From positions 1 through 21,892 of the forward strand of contig JAIXMF010000231.1 in NCBI GenBank assembly GCA_025201365.1: a stretch of DNA of 21,892 nucleotides, written 5' to 3'. This stretch comes from Syncephalis plumigaleata (taxonomy: Eukaryota; Zoopagomycota; Zoopagomycetes; Zoopagales; Piptocephalidaceae). Below, piece after piece: positions 187 to 8,452 of the stretch. Each line of letters opens with the position of its first letter. Positions within the stretch are counted from its first letter, which is position 1. Made by a program: the position numbers and the translations under genes. The notes beneath the pieces are model-generated. The model had not been told where the DNA came from. It worked only from the letters and a program-made list of their open reading frames with translations, and did not search any database.

Positions 187-300
187 TTGTTTTTCTTTTT
201 CTTTTTCTTTTAATGCTCCCGTAGCATATTTTATTATAATAAACCTATTTGACAACATTCAAATGAATGGCACTTATTCCATTAGTTATTACTAGACAAT
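187..300 (-). repeat. Dispersed retroposon 3' tail, copy 1
   Basis: On the minus strand this reads as a short sequence ending in an interrupted poly(A) (189-211 on the plus strand is a T run broken by single Cs). Next to the T run is a hairpin-forming word (ATGCT/AGCAT, about 213-226) and then TTTATTATA (230-238), which contains a minus-strand AATAAA. The same arrangement recurs at 1553-1650 and at the end of the SINE at 7773. Similarity to the 1553 copy continues to about position 300, including shared CAAATGAA and ATTACTAG words. No tRNA-like head is visible, so it is either a 5'-truncated retroposon or the polyadenylated end of a reverse-transcribed RNA. Confidence 0.55.
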
Positions 301-329
301 ATGTTCCATCTCCCTTCATCAATATCCAC

Positions 330-336
330 TATAAAA
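330..336 (+). promoter_or_regulatory. Possible TATA box of the 518 gene
   Basis: TATAAAA occurs 182 nt before the ATG at 518, followed by a CA-rich stretch (about 380-405) that could hold the transcription start. The motif is common in AT-rich DNA, so this is only positional support. Confidence 0.3.
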
Positions 337-517
337 GCAATGCAATTCTTTGCCATTATCCATAGTAACCATCATATCGCACTTATACGCACACACTCGC
401 ACATATTGTCAACTAATACTTTCAAGTTCAACAGCAACTGAAATAGCCTAGGCAATTTACACGCTACAACTCATCAATTTATTCAAGTAATCCAATTCTC
501 GCGACTATAATTTCAAT

Positions 518-1481: not shown

Positions 1482-1552
1482 CCGATTAATAAATACATTT
1501 TTAATGAGTGTATTTACATTTATTCGCTCCCATTAACCGTAATCTTGTCGTT
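1482..1552. promoter_or_regulatory. Possible poly(A) signal and 3' flank of the 1251 ORF
   Basis: AATAAA at 1488-1493 directly follows the stop codon of the small ORF. The remainder is AT-rich with no other signal. The call depends on the ORF being real. Confidence 0.25.
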
Positions 1553-1650
1553 CTTCTTTTAACATTGCCGTAGCATACTTTATTATAATGAAGCTTTTTA
1601 TGCAATGCTCAAATGAAATGATTAATTACTAGTTAGCAATAGCGCTTCTC
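1553..1650 (-). repeat. Dispersed retroposon 3' tail, copy 2
   Basis: This is the same tail as at 187-300 and at the SINE end. On the plus strand it is a pyrimidine/T-rich start, AACATTGCCGTAGCA (1561-1575), TTTATTATA (1579-1587), then CTCAAATGAA and ATTACTAG words aligning with copy 1. ACATTGCCGTAGC is shared exactly with the SINE tail. Read on the minus strand, the AATAAA-like signal and A-rich end face left. There is no tRNA-like head, so it is probably 5'-truncated. Confidence 0.55.
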
Positions 1651-1812: not shown

Positions 1813-1829
1813 AATTAACCATAAAAAAC
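1813..1829. repeat. LINE target-site duplication, left copy (3' side of element)
   Basis: AATTAACCATAAAAAAC is repeated exactly at 8166-8182. It directly abuts the T run at 1830-1839, which is the element's poly(A) on the minus strand. A 17-bp perfect duplication flanking a poly(A)-ended unit is the signature of target-primed reverse transcription. Confidence 0.93.
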
Positions 1830-2018
1830 TTTTTTTTTTCTTGTTAGAACATTTGGCTATACGCCTTCTTTATTATATCAAAGCATTAAACCAGATTTGT
1901 AATAAAAAAATTAGTAGCACATAGCTAATGCCCACGGAGTGAAATGTGTATAGCAGAAAAGGGACTAACTTATATGCTGCAGTACACGGTTAATAGCTGT
2001 GAAGAAGTTCGCGTGGTT
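1830..2018 (-). other. LINE 3'UTR and poly(A)
   Basis: This segment lies between the ORF2 stop and the target duplication. Its terminal part contains GAACATT (1847-1853 on plus), a small GGC-TATAC-GCC hairpin (about 1855-1865) and TTTATTATA (1869-1877), and ends in ten A residues on the minus strand. The order and spacing of these words match the end of the nested SINE at 7773-7820, so this is the likely recognition region for the element's own reverse transcriptase. Confidence 0.75.
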
Positions 2019-5000
2019 CTATGTCGGGCTGATGGTAGGCGGCTGTTGGCCGAATGTCGTTAGATTACTATTAAATAATATTCTACCGAATCTGGCTACA
2101 GCTCCACCAGGATCATATGTAAACCACTGGCATGGAGGCGAGGTCCAGCACTGTTCGAACTTGTTCATAGTATTAGTAGTTTTGGCATGATAAAGATCGG
2201 CTCGAATCCGCCTTGTGATCTCGCTTTGCCAACGGGTGAATATTGTGAAGGCACTGACAATCTTGTCGTCCCACCTCGCTTCCGTGTGTGCTCGATAGAT
2301 TTGCCAGACTGCCAACGCATAGAGACAGACAGTATTCGGAACTACCTTCTTCCACCTCAGAAACCCGTTGAAAACCACTGGGGCTTCCATTCTGGTTGGA
2401 GTGGATGGTGATTCCTGCATGATGCTATCCATGAACCGGCCTACCAGTGTCCAGTACTCCTTCACTCGCGGACACTCGTAGAAGTAGTGTCGTAGAGTCT
2501 CGGTAGCCGCCCTGCAGACACGGCATTGGTCGGTCGAATCTGGTATTACATGAACCATGCGTCTTGCCGTGGCCACTGCATTGTGGTGCATAAGCCATAG
2601 TAAGGATTGATGTTTCGGTTCAATGCGATTGGAGAAGACTTTTGACCATGTCAACATGCTGTTGCCGGCCTCCAGTTCGTCCGAGTTGTACCATTCCCTG
2701 GCGTTTGGCTCCATTACCCGCTCGCCCTGTATGAAGCTTCGACCAGTTTTTGGCTTGTAGTCGCTTAACTTTTGGTCTCCGATACGAAGATGCGCAAAAG
2801 GTAAGAAAGGTGGACCCGTCGTTGGGCTAACACGAAATGGCCGCAGGTACCTGCGAACCACTGGTGCCAGGCACCACCATGTGCGCCTTCTGTGATCACT
2901 AGTGACCACTCTAACTGCTGGGGTGTCGCGTGTGCAGTATATCTGCCGTTCGCTATCCCAGTGCCAGACGTCGCCAATGGTAGATATGCCTATTCTCTGC
3001 CATTGTTTTTTGCGCGCTGAAGGCAAGTAAGTAGTAAGGGTGGCTGCTGTGCCAATTAATGGCAGCGAGAAGATTTCGAGCGGATGCCACGTATCGTTCT
3101 CCTTCACCTCTATACATTGACCGTTCATTTTGGCCCAGAACTTCAGTGCTCGCTCCCAGAAGACGCGGTGTGGACCTGCGCGTAATTTCTGTCGTCGTTC
3201 GGCCTTTAAGCATAGTAATGAATGGTGCAGTTTGTTGGTTTCGAGTGTGTGCTGTAGTAGTGCCTGTGCCGCGGGCGACCAGTCTGGACGACCAGTTTCC
3301 GCTAGCATTTGCGTCACCCATACACCGAATATTGCAAGCGATTGCTCCCGTATTGGCAATAAACCTAAGCCACCCTCCGCTTTCGGCCGGGTGATTTTGT
3401 CTTCTGCTACACGGTTGAAGTTGCTTTTCCAAATGAATTTTTTGATCCGTTTGCTAACACTGCTCATAAAGGCGTCCGAGAACGGTACGATATGCGCGGC
3501 GAACCACACTTTCGCTAGTAAGCAAGAGTTGGCTAATAGCACACGGCCCATGAGCGATAGGTGACGGTCCTGCCATCTGTTAGCAGTGGTGTCAATACTT
3601 GCTAACAAACGAGCCTCCATCGTCTCTGTCGCTATTCCGGTTGTGGTGTAGTAAATACCTAGGTATCGTGTTGGTTCTCGTTCTCCCAGAGGTGGATACG
3701 GTAACTCAAACGACGGGCTACCTATTGGTATTAAAACAGTCTTTGATTGGTTGAGTTTAGCGGCGGACGCGGACTCGTATAGCGTAATGCTATCCTGGTA
3801 GTTTGAAACGTCCTCCGAGGAGCTGACAGCGACGGCCACATCGTCCGCGAAGGCTAGCGTCTTCATCGGGCGTCCAGATAACTGTATCCCGGCTAGCCGA
3901 TCTCGCAACATACATAGCAATGGCTCCAAGGTGAAGCTGTATAATAATGGCGATAGTGGATCTCCTTGGCGTAGACCTTTTTGTATTGGAATCCATTGGG
4001 ACAGCAATGGCCCAATTCTGACCGCGCCACGAGCACCGTCACCCATCATGGTCAACCACTGACGAAACCGCGGTCCAATGTTGAAAGCCTCCAGACATCG
4101 GTCCATGTATTTCCAGTCAACGCGGTCGTATGCTTTTTGTTGATCCAATAGCATTACCGCTCCGCTCACTTCCTCAGGTCTGATGATGCCGTGTTGGATG
4201 GCGAAGTGTAGCGTGTGGATGTTGTGGAAGATTGACCTTCCTTTAATGAAGCCCGCCTGCGTTTCGTCAATACACACCTGTGCCGCCGCTTGCATACGCA
4301 TCGTGAGGACTCGAGTGAGGATTTTGATGTCGCAGTCGGATAACGCAATCGGTCGCCAATTGGCCAGCGATAGTAAATCGCCTTTCTTTGGTAACAGTAT
4401 GATGTGCGTTCGTTTGAAAGATATAGGGAAGTGGCCGGCCCGTGCACACTCGTTGTATAAACGAACAAGTATTGGTGCAAGCTCATCTCTAAATCTTTTG
4501 TATAATTCATAGGAGATTCCGTCTGGTCCGGGCGCGCTGTTAAGAGGGGCCTCGTTAATGGCCTCGATCACCTCCTCTACCGCTATCTCAGCCTCCATCC
4601 TAGCACGCATGCCCTCGTCTACCCTTCGGCGGACGTGTTGTAATAGTGTGTCCTGGGCTTCTCTATTTGTGGAGACTTCCTCAAATAACCCGGTATAATA
4701 ATCACACACTACCCCAAAAATTCCTTCTGGGTCTCTCACTTCTCTTTCATCTCTACCTCTCAATTCTCGCAACCACTCGAATTGTTTCTGTCCTTTCATA
4801 CAGCGGTAGAAATATCTAGTTGATCGTTCGCCTTCTTCCGTCCAACGTGTGCGTGATCGAATCCTTCTTCCCTCCAGGCGATTTCTTACAGAGGTAGTGA
4901 TCTCATCTTCAAGCTGCGCACTCTTTTGAACCCAGGCCGTTACTTCGGTCGAGTTCTCCAGATAGTTGGGAGGTCGCGCCTGTAATGCGCGAAGTTTGGT

Positions 5001-5969
5001 AATGTTGGCCGTGAGGTTGTTGTCCAATCTACGCTTACGGGCACCTGCGTAGGCGGTCGATTGTCCACGAACGGTGTCTTTGAACAACTCCCATTCCGTA
5101 ATGGTTTGCTGTATGTGTGTACCGTCCTCACTCCATTGCAGTAAGCTGCTTTTAAGGTTGAATATCCATCGCTCGACCAGGTGCAGGTACTCGTCGTCCT
5201 TCAGTAGACTTACGTTCAGACGCCATACCGCGCGGCCTGGGAGCTTTGGTGTTGGGGGCGCGATCTCGGTTACTACCGGGTAGTGGTCGGATCGTGGCCC
5301 GTGCAATATAGTGGAGGGTGTGCAGCGCCTGGCCACCTGATTAGTCGTCAGAATGTGGTCGATACGTGAGAGGCACGCTCGTCCAGCATTACGCCACGTG
5401 AATACACCGGTATTCGGGTGGTGATTCCTAACCAAATCTACTAGCGCGCACCTTTCCATTAGCAGTTCATATTGGTCCCATTCTCTACGTGGACGTGCCG
5501 GTGGTGGCCAGCGGTCGAGCATAGGGTTTGGGGCGGCGTTGAGATCGCCTAATAACATAACGTGCGCTCCGGGTTGTATCAGCGTATCCAATTGTTCTAT
5601 AAATATAGCACGTTCGGTACAATCTACGGGAGCATAAATACAATAAATAAGAATAGAAGGAAATATTAACTTGTCGCCTTTAATCTCGGCAGCCAGAACG
5701 CGGCCATCGAGGTAAGCAACAGGTGGATTAACGAATGATAATAATGAGTTTGCGCTGAGCAGGATACCGGTGTGTTGAGTCCATACTGCTGGTCCTCCCC
5801 AGTGTTGCGTCCAATTAGCATGATCGCTATCATTGGCGTGGGTTTCCTGCAAAGCTATGATGTCTAGGTTTTGATCCTTTATATATGCGATCACGTTCCT
5901 GCGGTGAGTATCCATCTGAATACCTTGCACATTCCATGTCGCTACTTTGATCTTTTCCTTACTCATCAT
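2019..5969 (-). CDS. LINE ORF2: endonuclease and reverse transcriptase polyprotein
   Basis: A 1316-aa protein. Residues about 5-235 are an apurinic-type (exonuclease III-like) endonuclease: N13 in TWNVQG, E42 in LQET, D142/N144 in LLGDLN, D204 in SRIDHI, and S227-D228-H229. The reverse transcriptase lies at about 475-830: SAPGPDG, the LLPKKGD and NWRPIAL blocks, QAGFIKGRS, motif A catalytic D609 (LLDQQKAYD), GLRQGDPLSP, and the catalytic FADD pair D709/D710. C-terminally, C1149-x2-C1152-x8-H1161-x4-C1166 is a zf-RVT-like zinc motif. Together the enzyme would nick the target and prime cDNA synthesis there. No RNase H motif is evident. The start is an ATG-ATG pair 3 nt downstream of the ORF1 stop and in the same frame, pointing to reinitiation or readthrough. 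No stops or frameshifts are seen. Confidence 0.95.
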   Translation of the reverse strand: MMSKEKIKVATWNVQGIQMDTHRRNVIAYIKDQNLDIIALQETHANDSDHANWTQHWGGPAVWTQHTGILLSANSLLSFVNPPVAYLDGRVLAAEIKGDKLIFPSILIYCIYAPVDCTERAIFIEQLDTLIQPGAHVMLLGDLNAAPNPMLDRWPPPARPRREWDQYELLMERCALVDLVRNHHPNTGVFTWRNAGRACLSRIDHILTTNQVARRCTPSTILHGPRSDHYPVVTEIAPPTPKLPGRAVWRLNVSLLKDDEYLHLVERWIFNLKSSLLQWSEDGTHIQQTITEWELFKDTVRGQSTAYAGARKRRLDNNLTANITKLRALQARPPNYLENSTEVTAWVQKSAQLEDEITTSVRNRLEGRRIRSRTRWTEEGERSTRYFYRCMKGQKQFEWLRELRGRDEREVRDPEGIFGVVCDYYTGLFEEVSTNREAQDTLLQHVRRRVDEGMRARMEAEIAVEEVIEAINEAPLNSAPGPDGISYELYKRFRDELAPILVRLYNECARAGHFPISFKRTHIILLPKKGDLLSLANWRPIALSDCDIKILTRVLTMRMQAAAQVCIDETQAGFIKGRSIFHNIHTLHFAIQHGIIRPEEVSGAVMLLDQQKAYDRVDWKYMDRCLEAFNIGPRFRQWLTMMGDGARGAVRIGPLLSQWIPIQKGLRQGDPLSPLLYSFTLEPLLCMLRDRLAGIQLSGRPMKTLAFADDVAVAVSSSEDVSNYQDSITLYESASAAKLNQSKTVLIPIGSPSFELPYPPLGEREPTRYLGIYYTTTGIATETMEARLLASIDTTANRWQDRHLSLMGRVLLANSCLLAKVWFAAHIVPFSDAFMSSVSKRIKKFIWKSNFNRVAEDKITRPKAEGGLGLLPIREQSLAIFGVWVTQMLAETGRPDWSPAAQALLQHTLETNKLHHSLLCLKAERRQKLRAGPHRVFWERALKFWAKMNGQCIEVKENDTWHPLEIFSLPLIGTAATLTTYLPSARKKQWQRIGISTIGDVWHWDSERQIYCTRDTPAVRVVTSDHRRRTWWCLAPVVRRYLRPFRVSPTTGPPFLPFAHLRIGDQKLSDYKPKTGRSFIQGERVMEPNAREWYNSDELEAGNSMLTWSKVFSNRIEPKHQSLLWLMHHNAVATARRMVHVIPDSTDQCRVCRAATETLRHYFYECPRVKEYWTLVGRFMDSIMQESPSTPTRMEAPVVFNGFLRWKKVVPNTVCLYALAVWQIYRAHTEARWDDKIVSAFTIFTRWQSEITRRIRADLYHAKTTNTMNKFEQCWTSPPCQWFTYDPGGAVARFGRILFNSNLTTFGQQPPTISPT

Positions 5970-5972
5970 AAA

Positions 5973-7565
5973 TTATTGATTTTCATGTGTCCCCTCCATC
6001 ATATCATCCTGATCTGGTGGTGGTGACGATGTAGGTGCGTGTTCACTTGTTGTACTTCCGGTCACTTCCGCCATCTGTGCATCCATGGGTTGTGAATTGG
6101 GTACTGTTAGTGTCAACTGCGTGGAATGACCTTTCTCGGTAGGTATAGTATGAGTGAATACGAATTCTTGCAGGACGCGACCGTTGGGATCGTCACTGCC
6201 ATTATCATTCGTTTCCATAAGTGTGTTGTTTGGCTGGTGTTCACCTAGCTCGCCTCCATCAAATCCAGCCTCCCTGGGTCTATTGACGTCCACAGCCCCC
6301 TCCGGCCCCGTAGCTGATGGAGTTTCCTCCATAGCCTGTCCGGCGCCATCCGAGCTCGCAAGACTGCCATTTCTGACATCCGTTCGCTCTTCCAGCGTGA
6401 CTATCTCCGTCTCACCGCTCACATTTGTGGGTGCTGGTAATGAATTTGTTGAGTGATCCTTCTGAGTAGCAGCTTGTTTGCTTTGTGCTCGTGTGATCCT
6501 CATAGGTAGTTGAGTATCTTCGTAATTGCGCTTGGTTTTACGACGCTTGGCGAGTTCCTCACTTTCCGCTTCTGGCGTTTCAGTTGTAGATTGGGAGGAT
6601 GCGTTGGTAAGTAAAGCAAATGGATTTTGACTAGCAATATCTATTGCTTTGGGTGTTGTGGTAGCTTTAGCTGTTGCTGTTGCTCTTGGTGGTGCCTGAC
6701 GGCGCGTAGTAGCATCATCGTCTTTAAGTGTCTTTGGTTGCTTCCTCCTATCTTCTTTTTCATTCTTTGCTGCCAATGCGGGACATTTGTCAATACGATG
6801 GCCTGTCTTGCGGCAGTACCGGCATGCTGGTTCGCAGTCTGTCCAGTAGAGTCTGGCCAGCTCGTTGTTGATTGTTATGTTTTCCGGTCGTCCAGTGTCG
6901 ACCTCCGACGTATTAGTATCGATTGTGACCTCGGCTCGACGCATGGGAAGTTTGTATGTACCGCTCACATATAGGGCTGTGTCGACCACTCGTCCATAAG
7001 GTGAGAAAACTTTAATGAGTTCTTTGGTGATAGCAACTGGACAGGTATAGTCGAGGTTGATCACAGTAATTTTAACTAATCCCCCGGTGGCGCAGTACTG
7101 GCGTGTCACGGGGATTTGTTGATTTTTATAATGGACTCCATCCTGAATTATTTCCAATAAAATTTTTTCCTCTTTTATTGACACTAACATGGATTTGGAG
7201 CTGGTATTGTAGTCCACACCATTCGCTTTGGTACCAATTGTATGCAGAATCTTGAGTGCATCGGGCCTCCATCCTTCCCCTAAACACGATAGATCGCAAT
7301 GGAGGGCATTTTTGTAGGCAAACGTTGCTACCCTAGGAGCTGGAAAGTCGCCCAATGGGGTTCCTTCCTCCGCATCCCTAAGATGAAATGAACTAATTTT
7401 AGTGTAAAGTGGCGTAGCTGTACTACCAGGGGTAGATACTTTGTTTTTTTTCTTTCGAAATGCTTTTTGCTTTTTTGCTCCATCGCCTTTGACCATAGCG
7501 CTGTATGATACTGGGGGTGGAGGGTTAGAGGGCGGTGGCGTACCACCATCGGATGTAGTTGCCAT
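5973..7565 (-). CDS. LINE ORF1: RRM-like, CCHC zinc-knuckle RNA-binding protein
   Basis: 530 aa from the first ATG (7565); an in-frame TTG lies three codons earlier but I prefer ATG. Residues about 13-45 are Pro-rich then strongly basic (KKQKAFRKKKNK). A beta-alpha-beta RRM-like segment lies at about 163-215 (LVKITVINL ... ELIKVFSPYGRVV ... RRAEVTI). One Gag-type knuckle, C-x2-C-x4-H-x4-C (CRYCRKTGHRIDKC, about 248-261), follows. The C-terminal half is low-complexity, rich in Thr/Ser/Glu/Pro. Proteins of this kind coat the element's RNA and act as nucleic-acid chaperones in the retrotransposition particle. It ends with TAA at 5975-5973, immediately before ORF2. Confidence 0.9.
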   Translation of the reverse strand: MATTSDGGTPPPSNPPPPVSYSAMVKGDGAKKQKAFRKKKNKVSTPGSTATPLYTKISSFHLRDAEEGTPLGDFPAPRVATFAYKNALHCDLSCLGEGWRPDALKILHTIGTKANGVDYNTSSKSMLVSIKEEKILLEIIQDGVHYKNQQIPVTRQYCATGGLVKITVINLDYTCPVAITKELIKVFSPYGRVVDTALYVSGTYKLPMRRAEVTIDTNTSEVDTGRPENITINNELARLYWTDCEPACRYCRKTGHRIDKCPALAAKNEKEDRRKQPKTLKDDDATTRRQAPPRATATAKATTTPKAIDIASQNPFALLTNASSQSTTETPEAESEELAKRRKTKRNYEDTQLPMRITRAQSKQAATQKDHSTNSLPAPTNVSGETEIVTLEERTDVRNGSLASSDGAGQAMEETPSATGPEGAVDVNRPREAGFDGGELGEHQPNNTLMETNDNGSDDPNGRVLQEFVFTHTIPTEKGHSTQLTLTVPNSQPMDAQMAEVTGSTTSEHAPTSSPPPDQDDMMEGTHENQ

Positions 7566-7754
7566 TGATGCCAACGGCGGTACGACGTTGGTGTCAGTGG
7601 CAAGCTCAGAAGCTACTAGAAAATAAAAGCTCAGAAGCTACTAGAAAATAAAAGCTCAGAAGCTACTAGAAAATAAAAGCTCAGAAGCTACTAGAAAATA
7701 AAAGCTCAGAAGCTACTAGAAAATAAAAGCTCAGAAGCTACTAGAAAATAAAAG

Positions 7755-7772
7755 CTCAGAAGCTACTAGAAA
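7755..7772. repeat. SINE target-site duplication, left copy
   Basis: CTCAGAAGCTACTAGAAA is repeated at 8105-8122. Because the site lies inside a tandem array the repeat is less diagnostic than usual, but the copy at 8105 is out of phase with a simple insertion and is best explained as an 18-bp duplication (or a coincident 7-nt loss). Confidence 0.7.
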
Positions 7773-8104
7773 TTTTTTTTTTTTTTCTTTTTGAACATTG
7801 CCGTAGCTTATTTTATTATAATAAACATGTTTATACAAACTGGGCATGTCCACAAGTGAAGACATCGCATATCCTATTTCTTGGAAATCGATGGGAGAAG
7901 TCGGCCGTTGGTTAAGACGTCCTGGAAAACCGCACGCGGGTGAAAGAACCAACCTAGTTATTATTATGGTTGGGTGAAGACATTTTTAAAGCTGCCTATA
8001 CTTTTTTGATACCTTTTTTCCTCTTGAAGGGATTGGCAGGAATCGAACCCAGGACCCCTACGGTCCGAGGACGGGCGCCGTACCACTAGGCCACGGCACC
8101 GCCT
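7773..8104 (-). mobile_element. tRNA-derived SINE nested in the LINE 5' region
   Basis: On the minus strand the 332-nt element begins with a tRNA-like head (A box TGGCCTAGTGG, 8093-8083; B box GGTTCGATTCC, 8049-8039). It continues through an unrelated body of about 240 nt and ends with an AATAAA-containing tail and a poly(A) (plus-strand T run 7773-7786, then C and TTTTT). It is flanked by an 18-bp duplication. It has no protein-coding potential. The body contains an inverted repeat (AACCAACC 7947-7954 with GGTTGGGT 7968-7975). The tail shares GAACATT and TTTATTATA, in the same order and spacing, with the LINE 3' end. This is the usual layout of a Pol III-transcribed SINE mobilised by a partner LINE. 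Confidence 0.82.
8029..8104 (-). ncRNA. tRNA-like head of the SINE (Pol III promoter)
   Basis: Perfect matches to the eukaryotic A-box and B-box consensus stand 33 nt apart. A D-arm (GCC...GGC) and a TTCGATT T-loop can be drawn. The acceptor ends do not pair well, the anticodon stem is poor, and the T-stem has a mismatch, so I read this as a tRNA-derived promoter and not a working tRNA gene. A CGG or TCG anticodon-like triplet is present but the loop geometry does not settle an identity. Confidence 0.7.
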
Positions 8105-8165
8105 CTCAGAAGCTACTAGAAAATAAAAGCTCAGAAGCTACTAGAAAATAAAAGCTCAGAAGCTC

Positions 8166-8182
8166 AATTAACCATAAAAAAC
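8166..8182. repeat. LINE target-site duplication, right copy (5' side of element)
   Basis: An exact copy of 1813-1829. The uninterrupted ancestral site would read across 1812 to 8183 with a single copy. The nicked primer strand would end in ...AAAAAAC, which cannot anneal to a poly(A) tail, so priming here did not depend on T:A pairing. Confidence 0.93.
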
Positions 8183-8249: not shown

Positions 8250-8368
8250 AACTACGTTCATAGCGCCTGAAAAGCACCGGATCCCGTCCGATCTCCGAAG
8301 TTAAGCCAGGCCGCGCCCCCTTAGTACTGCGGTGGGAGACCACGCGGGAATCTCGGGTAATGTAGTTT
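8250..8368 (+). rRNA. 5S ribosomal RNA
   Basis: The gene has canonical fungal 5S blocks: GCACCGGATCCCGTCCGATC, GAAGTTAAGCCAGG, GTACTGCGGTGGGAGACCAC, GCGGGAATCTCGGGT. The terminal helix closes between 8250-8258 and 8359-8367 with a single G-U pair. Length is about 119 nt, normal for 5S. TTTT at 8366-8369 overlaps the end and can serve as the Pol III terminator. The internal control region is intact. Confidence 0.96.
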
Positions 8369-8375
8369 TCAACAT

Positions 8376-8446
8376 GCGTAGTTGGTTTAGTGGTATAATT
8401 ACCGCCTGCCACGCGGTAGACCGGGGTTCGATTCCCCGACTACGCA
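8376..8446 (+). tRNA. tRNA-Gly (GCC)
   Basis: A 71-nt intronless tRNA. The acceptor stem GCGTAGT pairs with ACTACGC, with discriminator A; the D-arm contains TTTAGTGGTATAA; the anticodon loop CTGCCAC gives GCC; the T-arm is CGGGG-TTCGATT-CCCCG. A Pol III T5 terminator follows at 8453-8457. It starts 7 nt after the 5S gene. Confidence 0.97.
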
Positions 8447-8452
8447 CTGATC

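Follow-up and report, generated by a model that had tools for sequence, protein, structure and literature searches.

Introduction

SINEs whose 3' ends match those of a LINE have been described in several fungi, as in the pairs Mg-SINE/MgL of Magnaporthe and SINE2-1_BG/Tad1-24_BG of Blumeria (PMC3747384), and in Aspergillus the tail of AfuSINE2-1a resembles that of I-1_AF (PMC5063351); LINE/SINE tail sharing by itself is already known, fungi included. The portions of these two papers drawn on here make no mention of Pol III-gene targeting for the fungal pairs. L1/SINE pairs with poly(A) are described from plants and green algae, among them maize ZmSINE2/3 and Chlamydomonas SINEX-3_CR (PMC3747384), and stringent tail recognition by LINEs is the subject of PMC4176376. 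Insertion beside Pol III genes is illustrated by the TRE elements of Dictyostelium: TRE5 elements lie 40-54 bp upstream of tRNA genes, or 37-41 bp in the case of 5S genes, in opposite orientation, and TRE3 elements lie 40-150 bp downstream in the same orientation (PMC5911963). In the part of that paper available to us, the table entries for non-LTR elements that target Pol III genes all come from social amoebae, and Pol III targeting is expected to feature among fungal retrotransposons; a limited search of the open-licence literature recognised neither a fungal nor a SINE case.

Here we report on two such LINE/SINE pairs in Syncephalis plumigaleata, studied in the window, a 21.9-kb contig, and by searches of the 32.6-Mb genome. 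The gene content agrees with a fungus: there are 16 Fungal_trans matches, from a search whose 14 controls are all prokaryotes, and an eL40 protein whose best-matching chains are those of fungal ribosomes. An earlier note on the window had observed that a LINE and a SINE share the layout of their 3' tails, and had proposed that this LINE, or a relative, moves the SINE. Our reading, to which we assign a probability of roughly 0.7, is that each SINE is mobilised by the LINE whose tail it matches and shares the insertion address of that LINE.

Results

The window LINE and its relatives

The LINE of the window, LINE-A, is a full-length element whose parts are collected in Table 1. Its ORF2 aligns with human L1 ORF2p (residues 5-870, E 5.5e-78), and its match to R2 proteins is confined to the reverse transcriptase; ORF1 has no Pfam match at E 0.001, and by eye it contains a CX2CX4HX4C zinc knuckle. 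The window SINE, SINE-1, is nested in the 5' repeats of LINE-A and is therefore the younger of the two; because its probable target duplication is sited in these repeats, the duplicated sequence is not unique. Long tandem-repeat arrays open both LINE-A, with a 25-base unit, and LINE-C, with a different and longer one, and recall the promoter monomers of mouse L1. Two stretches of the window (187-340 and ~1813-1830) recur nearly identically at C223:1687437-1689069. Both loci have a LINE-A upstream of paired 5S and tRNA-Gly genes, full-length at one locus and truncated at the other, and C148 is possibly a duplicate or an alternative haplotype.

Table 1. Features of the window, with related repeat arrays elsewhere in the genome.
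Feature	Position	Strand	Remarks
LINE-B 3' end, truncated, diverged	193..269	-	~90%
LINE-B-like 3' end, truncated, diverged	1551..1605	-	~84-88%
Target-site duplication of LINE-A, 3' side	1813..1829		AATTAACCATAAAAAAC, 17 bp
LINE-A, full-length non-LTR retrotransposon	1830..8165	-	ORFs, Pfam domains, poly(A), matching target duplications
LINE-A poly(A)	1830..1839	-	T10 on + strand
LINE-A 3' tail, last 48 nt	1840..1887	-	homologous to SINE-2 tail, weakly similar to SINE-1 tail
LINE-A tail word CTTGTTA	1840..1846	+	
LINE-A tail word GAACATT	1847..1853	+	
LINE-A tail word TGGCTATACGCC	1854..1865	+	
LINE-A tail word TTC	1866..1868	+	
LINE-A tail word TTTATTATA	1869..1877	+	
LINE-A ORF2	2019..5972	-	Pfam: endonuclease PF03372, reverse transcriptase PF00078, zf-RVT PF13966
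LINE-A ORF1, open frame	5973..7634	-	likely start is the ATG of MATTSDGG
LINE-A 5' region, tandem 25-base repeats	7602..8165	-	interrupted by SINE-1; overlaps start of ORF1 open frame
5' repeat arrays of LINE-A and LINE-C	window 7602-8165; C290:51900-52616; C1:239372-241000		
Probable target duplication of SINE-1, 3' side	7755..7772		CTCAGAAGCTACTAGAAA
SINE-1	7773..8104	-	tRNA-like head, A-/B-box-like words, body without match, LINE-B-like tail, poly(A)
SINE-1 T run, T14	7773..7786	+	
SINE-1 3' tail, 40 nt before poly(A)	7787..7826	-	closest to LINE-B 3' end
SINE-1 tail word CTTTTT	7787..7792	+	
SINE-1 tail word GAACATT	7793..7799	+	
SINE-1 tail word GCCGTAGC	7800..7807	+	
SINE-1 tail word TTAT	7808..7811	+	
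SINE-1 tail word TTTATTATA	7812..7820	+	
Probable target duplication of SINE-1, 5' side	8105..8122		
Target-site duplication of LINE-A, 5' side	8166..8182		identical 17 bases, AATTAACCATAAAAAAC
5S rRNA gene	8250..8368	+	LINE-A 5' end 84 bp upstream, head to head
tRNA-Gly(gcc) gene	8376..8447	+	

A genome-wide search with the LINE-A 3' UTR found at least 41 places, comprising at least 13 LINE-A copies at 93-100%, at least two remnants of 50 nt (96%) and at least 26 places at 78-79% over ~119 nt, those read among the latter being a second SINE, SINE-2. The 50-nt matches at C90/C32 were considered as a third SINE and rejected, since they are a 5'-truncated LINE-A insertion with near-identical flanks. 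Searching with the SINE-1 tail returned at least 47 places, including at least five whole SINE-1 copies that are 98-100% identical. Among 42 matches outside SINE-1, the 25 that were read are similar to it over about the last 50 nt only, and in nearly all of these the shared tail is preceded by CATTCATTTGAATGTTGTCAA, exactly or with slight variation; they represent another LINE, LINE-B, whose ORF2 is 45-51% identical to that of LINE-A at the amino acid level over matched stretches. Within 400 bp at C199:6493-6853, pieces of the LINE-B tail form a cluster of at least four, with both orientations represented. For LINE-C, at least five long ORF2 frames encode 1262-1266 aa and share 55% identity with LINE-A over the first 961 residues; its 3' end reads TTTATTAAATAAAATTAGGCTACGGCCCAGGATTATAATA followed by poly(A). 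LINE-D is a distant LINE, 25-29% identical to the LINE-A ORF2.

Both SINEs have the attributes of tRNA-derived SINEs, namely a head that resembles a tRNA and bears Pol III A and B boxes, and dispersed non-coding copies with target duplications (at least 31 copies for SINE-2). The B box GGTTCGATTCC was found by script in SINE-2 and by eye in SINE-1, where TGGCCTAGTGG is A-box-like, also by eye, all box calls being made against the consensus. ARAGORN calls the SINE-2 head tRNA-Pro(cgg); the SINE-1 head is called neither by ARAGORN nor by Rfam at gathering score. By script, an exact repeat of 14-23 nt flanks 19 of 22 SINE-2 copies, with A-run overlap making up part of the longest; one copy has a repeat of 7 nt and two have none. 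A diverged SINE-like head (77%) at C44:19116-19205, ~100 bp from a tRNA-Arg(tcg), is perhaps a third, older SINE family. Downstream of tRNA-Lys(ctt), C380:13276-13452 holds a tailless stretch resembling the LINE-A 3' UTR, and this locus and C79:104023-104292 share a similar leader; the two stretches are possibly the remnant of a tRNA-Lys-headed SINE.

Two SINEs carry the tails of two LINEs

The words and coordinates that the earlier note had given for the two window tails are correct, with GAACATT and TTTATTATA in the same order; the T runs are the poly(A) tails of the minus-strand LINE-A and SINE-1, the words being read on the opposite strand. Tails were aligned over the last 48 nt before the poly(A), anchored at the poly(A) end, and compared with 2000 dinucleotide shuffles, either full or with AATAAA held fixed, and with 1476 windows at other AATAAA sites of the DNA examined, taken at five offsets. 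The LINE-A and SINE-1 tails (score 38, 35 matches in 53 columns) did moderately better than the shuffles, 1/2000 full shuffles and 5/2000 with AATAAA fixed reaching their score, and better than every one of the 1476 windows (maximum 31). SINE-1 with LINE-B scores 69 (42/50 columns; 94% across 50 nt, ~10 of them A residues of the poly(A)) and LINE-A with SINE-2 scores 63 (41/51 columns; 79% over 119 nt including ~10 A), neither score being reached by any of the 2000 AATAAA-fixed shuffles or the 1476 windows. The likeness between LINE-A and SINE-1 is real, but weaker than that within these two pairs, in which the known habit of SINEs of borrowing the 3' tail of a LINE, invoked in the earlier note, is seen in this genome.

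Of the remaining comparisons, SINE-1/LINE-C (score 34) and LINE-B/LINE-C (score 41) were matched by 0/2000 shuffles. The LINE-A/LINE-B score of 30 was reached by 89/2000 shuffles with AATAAA fixed, so the tails of the two LINEs are not clearly homologous by the alignment test. Nor is homology clear for SINE-1/SINE-2 (score reached by 212/2000 shuffles), LINE-B/SINE-2 (240), LINE-C/LINE-A (134) or LINE-C/SINE-2 (score 22, reached by 510/2000). The word GAACATT is not diagnostic, because some LINE-B copies read AATGTTA, one base from the AATGTTC of SINE-1. SINE-1 has GTTCAAAAAG where the majority of LINE-B has ATTAAAAG, so that the search did not reach the precise subfamily that donated the tail.

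Such tails could in principle arise by chance, or from generic poly(A)-signal context of the host, a source of error that the earlier note had itself foreseen. In keeping with this, TTTATTATA complements TATAATAAA, a poly(A) signal, and the LINE-A/SINE-1 result weakens when AATAAA is held fixed; but the AATAAA windows nowhere reach the score, both of the stronger pairs stand clear of all shuffles, and LINE-D, inspected by eye in three copies, has no such tail and no poly(A). Host context or chance is hardly credible as the source of the likeness.

The tail likeness resides in the primary sequence. A small GC hairpin, which the earlier note had placed between the shared words of both tails, occurs in LINE-A only, as GGC(GUAUA)GCC; the SINE-1 tail has no fold at that place, and the folding of either tail is no better than that of its shuffles (z -0.39 for LINE-A and -0.42 for SINE-1), so that the conserved stem-loop it envisaged finds no support. 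With one sequence folded per family, the five tails have no fold in common of the kind associated with stringent LINEs. LINE-C has a small hairpin, GGC(UACG)GCC, that is no better than shuffles (z 0.15), SINE-1 and LINE-B favour an upstream pairing (z -0.42 and -1.88), and SINE-2 favours a different one (z -1.20). The lowest of these values, that of LINE-B (about -1.9), belongs to a hairpin absent from LINE-A and LINE-C and is equalled by 8/200 shuffles.

SINE-2, LINE-A and LINE-C share a slot upstream of tRNA and 5S genes

Pol III genes near the insertions were located by ARAGORN and a 5S search of the element loci, and all distances were recomputed. A search of 20 loci with Rfam for further Pol III genes gave six matches in five loci, all of them tRNA or tRNA-Sec genes already known from ARAGORN, and no other Rfam family at gathering score. 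The counts leave out fragments cut off at the ends of the stretches analysed, cross-matches to the SINE-1 head, the outer halves of split SINE-2 copies, and a tailless LINE-A/SINE-2-like fragment lying 35 bp downstream of a tRNA-Lys on the same strand (C380).

SINE-2 was examined at 31 of at least 32 places (C2:421126 was left out), and 19 of the 31 5' ends face, head to head and at 75-106 bp, a host gene for tRNA Ser, Val, Glu, Ile, Ala, Gln, Phe, Leu, Asn or Cys, or for 5S. Seven more follow immediately on a copy of LINE-A or LINE-C, in the manner of a stack, and five do neither (C2:414474, C322:7000, C351:74823, C46 at 175 bp and C65 at 591 bp). Nine of 16 LINE-C 5' ends away from contig or stretch edges lie 72-99 bp upstream of a tRNA or 5S gene, again head to head; among the other seven, one belongs to the composite described below, two follow immediately on a SINE-2, one faces the head of a SINE-2 at 79 bp, head to head (C351), and three have no Pol III gene in reach. 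In four cases (C341, C290, C351:79224 and C1:239073) the nearby tRNA was known before selection, and without them the counts become 17/29 for SINE-2 and 7/14 for LINE-C. The chance expectation for a 35-bp slot is 0.03 in 31, even if all 956 tRNA candidates of the first look are genes.

For LINE-A the slot is occupied by three of 15 copies, at 83-90 bp and head to head: the window copy, 84 bp from the 5S gene, the C223 copy, 83 bp from a 5S gene, and the C92 copy, 90 bp from a tRNA-Tyr. One further copy, on C322, faces the head of a SINE-2 at 96 bp, head to head, and three are directly behind SINE-2. The remaining eight, including a full-length copy in coding-like sequence on C35, are at neither a slot, a SINE-2 head nor a direct stack; LINE-A is not strictly targeted to Pol III genes.

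Two loci exemplify such stacks. On C1, a SINE-2 lying 105 bp from a tRNA-Ser is followed by LINE-A and another SINE-2, and the target duplication, TAGATTTGATCACGTG, is found again between these elements; on C290, the LINE-C 5' end is 80 bp from a tRNA-Thr, a LINE-A lies 302 bp past the LINE-C 3' end and a SINE-2 is directly behind that LINE-A. These arrangements fit repeated use of one slot, in which newcomers would push older copies outward.

A sequence-specific target, TAGATTTGATCACGTG, was also considered and set aside, as this word lies in a stretch that is repeated beside several tRNA genes and by eye resembles the end of an LTR element. The stretch CACTTTAACGAATCTCCACCTAGATTTG occurs beside several tRNA genes next to LTR-element-like sequence (C88, C373, C322, C1 and C290), which suggests that in this genome the flanks of tRNA genes serve an LTR retrotransposon as well.

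LINE-B and SINE-1 insert elsewhere

The upstream slot holds none of 30 LINE-B copies and none of five SINE-1 copies (Fisher, SINE-2 vs LINE-B 7e-8 and SINE-2 vs SINE-1 0.016); the LINE-B count covers copies whose 5' end could be used, without C38 and C328, and includes several tandem neighbours. Some copies of both families lie instead 74-93 bp downstream, on the same strand, of a tRNA gene or of the tRNA-like head of a SINE-2, a slot that we spotted post hoc: two of five SINE-1 copies (74 and 87 bp) and six of 30 LINE-B copies, at 79 (C351), 80 (C112), 86 (C123), 88 (C223) and 93 bp (C380) and, measured by hand with an intervening SINE-1 discounted, ~90 bp (C35:130935). Six of these eight cases are in SINE-2 copies and two at host tRNA genes (Arg, Lys). 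Within 30-110 bp downstream the other three families have 0/62 copies (Fisher, 8/35 vs 0/62, 1.6e-4). Outside the downstream slot are 24 of 30 LINE-B copies and three of five SINE-1 copies, including that of the window. Scanning for B boxes upstream of 20 LINE-B/SINE-1 insertions added little to this slot, with good boxes at C380 and C79, where the tRNA-Lys was already known, and weaker ones at C24 and C112:782799. Two short LINE-B copies lie 248-259 bp upstream of tRNA genes, head to head (C212:2411 and C81:16666), for which we found no reason.

These positions bear on whether LINE-A, the LINE of the window itself, mobilises SINE-1. The ordered words GAACATT and TTTATTATA, a tail score above that of all AATAAA windows and the physical nesting of SINE-1 in LINE-A speak for such a role; against it, LINE-B fits SINE-1 far better (69 vs 38), LINE-A already has a better-matched SINE in SINE-2, the SINE-1 copies are missing from the 72-106-bp upstream slot, and the nesting in the LINE-A 5' repeats is one event of five. 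We regard LINE-A as a very unlikely mover of SINE-1, and of the earlier proposal that this LINE or a relative moves the SINE, it is the relative, LINE-B, that we retain.

A composite of SINE-2 and LINE-C

At C1:239073-246982, an A-run joins a SINE-2 without its last 31 nt to the 5' end of a LINE-C, the middle of which (241000-246800) was identified from its ORF2 match. The sequence GATATCGCGTTTTTTA precedes the SINE-2, recurs past the LINE-C poly(A), and is absent at the SINE-2/LINE-C junction. The simplest reading is that the composite is a candidate single insertion with a template jump, in which the LINE-C poly(A) would have been primed first and the reverse transcriptase would then have passed onto SINE-2 RNA. 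Read in this way, the composite suggests machinery shared by SINE-2 and LINE-C, and offers sequence evidence that a LINE of the LINE-A/LINE-C group may copy SINE-2 RNA. Weighing against our explanation, the LINE involved is LINE-C, whose tail is far less like that of SINE-2 than the LINE-A tail is, and the SINE-2 of the composite is itself tailless.

The missing tail would sit comfortably with a relaxed, poly(A)-recognising machinery common to all families, as in mammalian L1, under which the tails would be inherited and unused for recognition. Poly(A) follows the tails of all five families (LINE-A, LINE-B, LINE-C, SINE-1 and SINE-2), and the tails share no stable conserved stem-loop, as such a machinery would allow. 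Yet the tails kept by the two SINEs belong to different LINEs, and the insertion slots sort with the tails, a sorting that a common pool would not yield. We consider a relaxed machinery unlikely, though less so than the mobilisation of SINE-1 by LINE-A, and favour tail-matched mobilisation.

Discussion

The tail homologies, the target duplications, the insertion positions and the single SINE-2::LINE-C composite are all features of the genome sequence itself, and from them we propose the following model of mobilisation. SINE-1 would be a passenger with a tRNA-like head and, in its last ~40 nt, a copy of the LINE-B 3' end; the LINE-B protein probably recognises this tail together with the poly(A), and SINE-1 would be copied by target-primed reverse transcription. 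LINE-A, or its relative LINE-C, would likewise mobilise SINE-2. Transcription of the SINEs by Pol III and targeting of the insertions via the Pol III machinery are, we infer, further parts of this scheme. As the LINE machinery picks the site, each SINE should inherit the address of its partner: for SINE-2, LINE-A and LINE-C this would be ~90 bp upstream of tRNA and 5S genes, antisense, and for SINE-1 and LINE-B it would be elsewhere, in part 74-93 bp downstream of tRNA-like genes, in sense orientation. The association of tail pairing with address is firm in the case of SINE-2, LINE-A and LINE-C, and tentative in that of SINE-1 and LINE-B. A broader picture, for which we see about even odds, is that the borrowed tail sets both the copier and the landing site, giving two LINE-SINE pairs with two Pol III addresses, and that SINE-2, itself a Pol III gene, hosts the other pair, so that stacks grow beside tRNA genes.

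What is new here is that SINE-2, in which the only detected LINE part is a tail of ~110 nt, shares a Pol III address with the LINEs, and thereby provides a natural experiment. With no more than this LINE-derived tail at the address of the LINEs, targeting would sit in the LINE proteins and host Pol III factors, and the RNA tail would act as a ticket. If true, the non-LTR elements that target Pol III genes would gain an example from a fungus, with SINEs involved.

As far as the consulted portions of the literature describe them, the known fungal pairs are like those reported here in that the 3' end of a tRNA-headed SINE matches that of a LINE in the same fungus, and unlike them in that here one genome has two SINEs paired with two LINEs and the pairs differ in insertion site. 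The L1/SINE pairs of plants and algae likewise combine tail homology with a terminal poly(A); the portion of PMC3747384 at hand reports for monocot L1/SINE tails a stem-loop supported by base changes, and none is supported here.

The closest parallels in position come from Dictyostelium, as presented in the part of PMC5911963 available to us. TRE5-A has, like LINE-A, an ORF2 with endonuclease, reverse transcriptase and zinc finger, an oligo(A) tail, and a place upstream of tRNA and 5S genes in opposite orientation. LINE-A has the same three ORF2 domains, and the orientation is that of TRE5, but at 72-106 bp the distance here lies outside the 40-54 bp of TRE5; unlike TRE5-A, moreover, the present LINEs reside in a fungal host and have a tRNA-headed SINE as partner. 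TRE3-A differs in that a downstream position is taken here by only 8/35 LINE-B/SINE-1 copies, six at SINE-2 heads and two at host tRNA genes. By analogy, the arrangement as a whole resembles that of TRE5 and TRE3 in Dictyostelium, but in a fungus and with SINE passengers.
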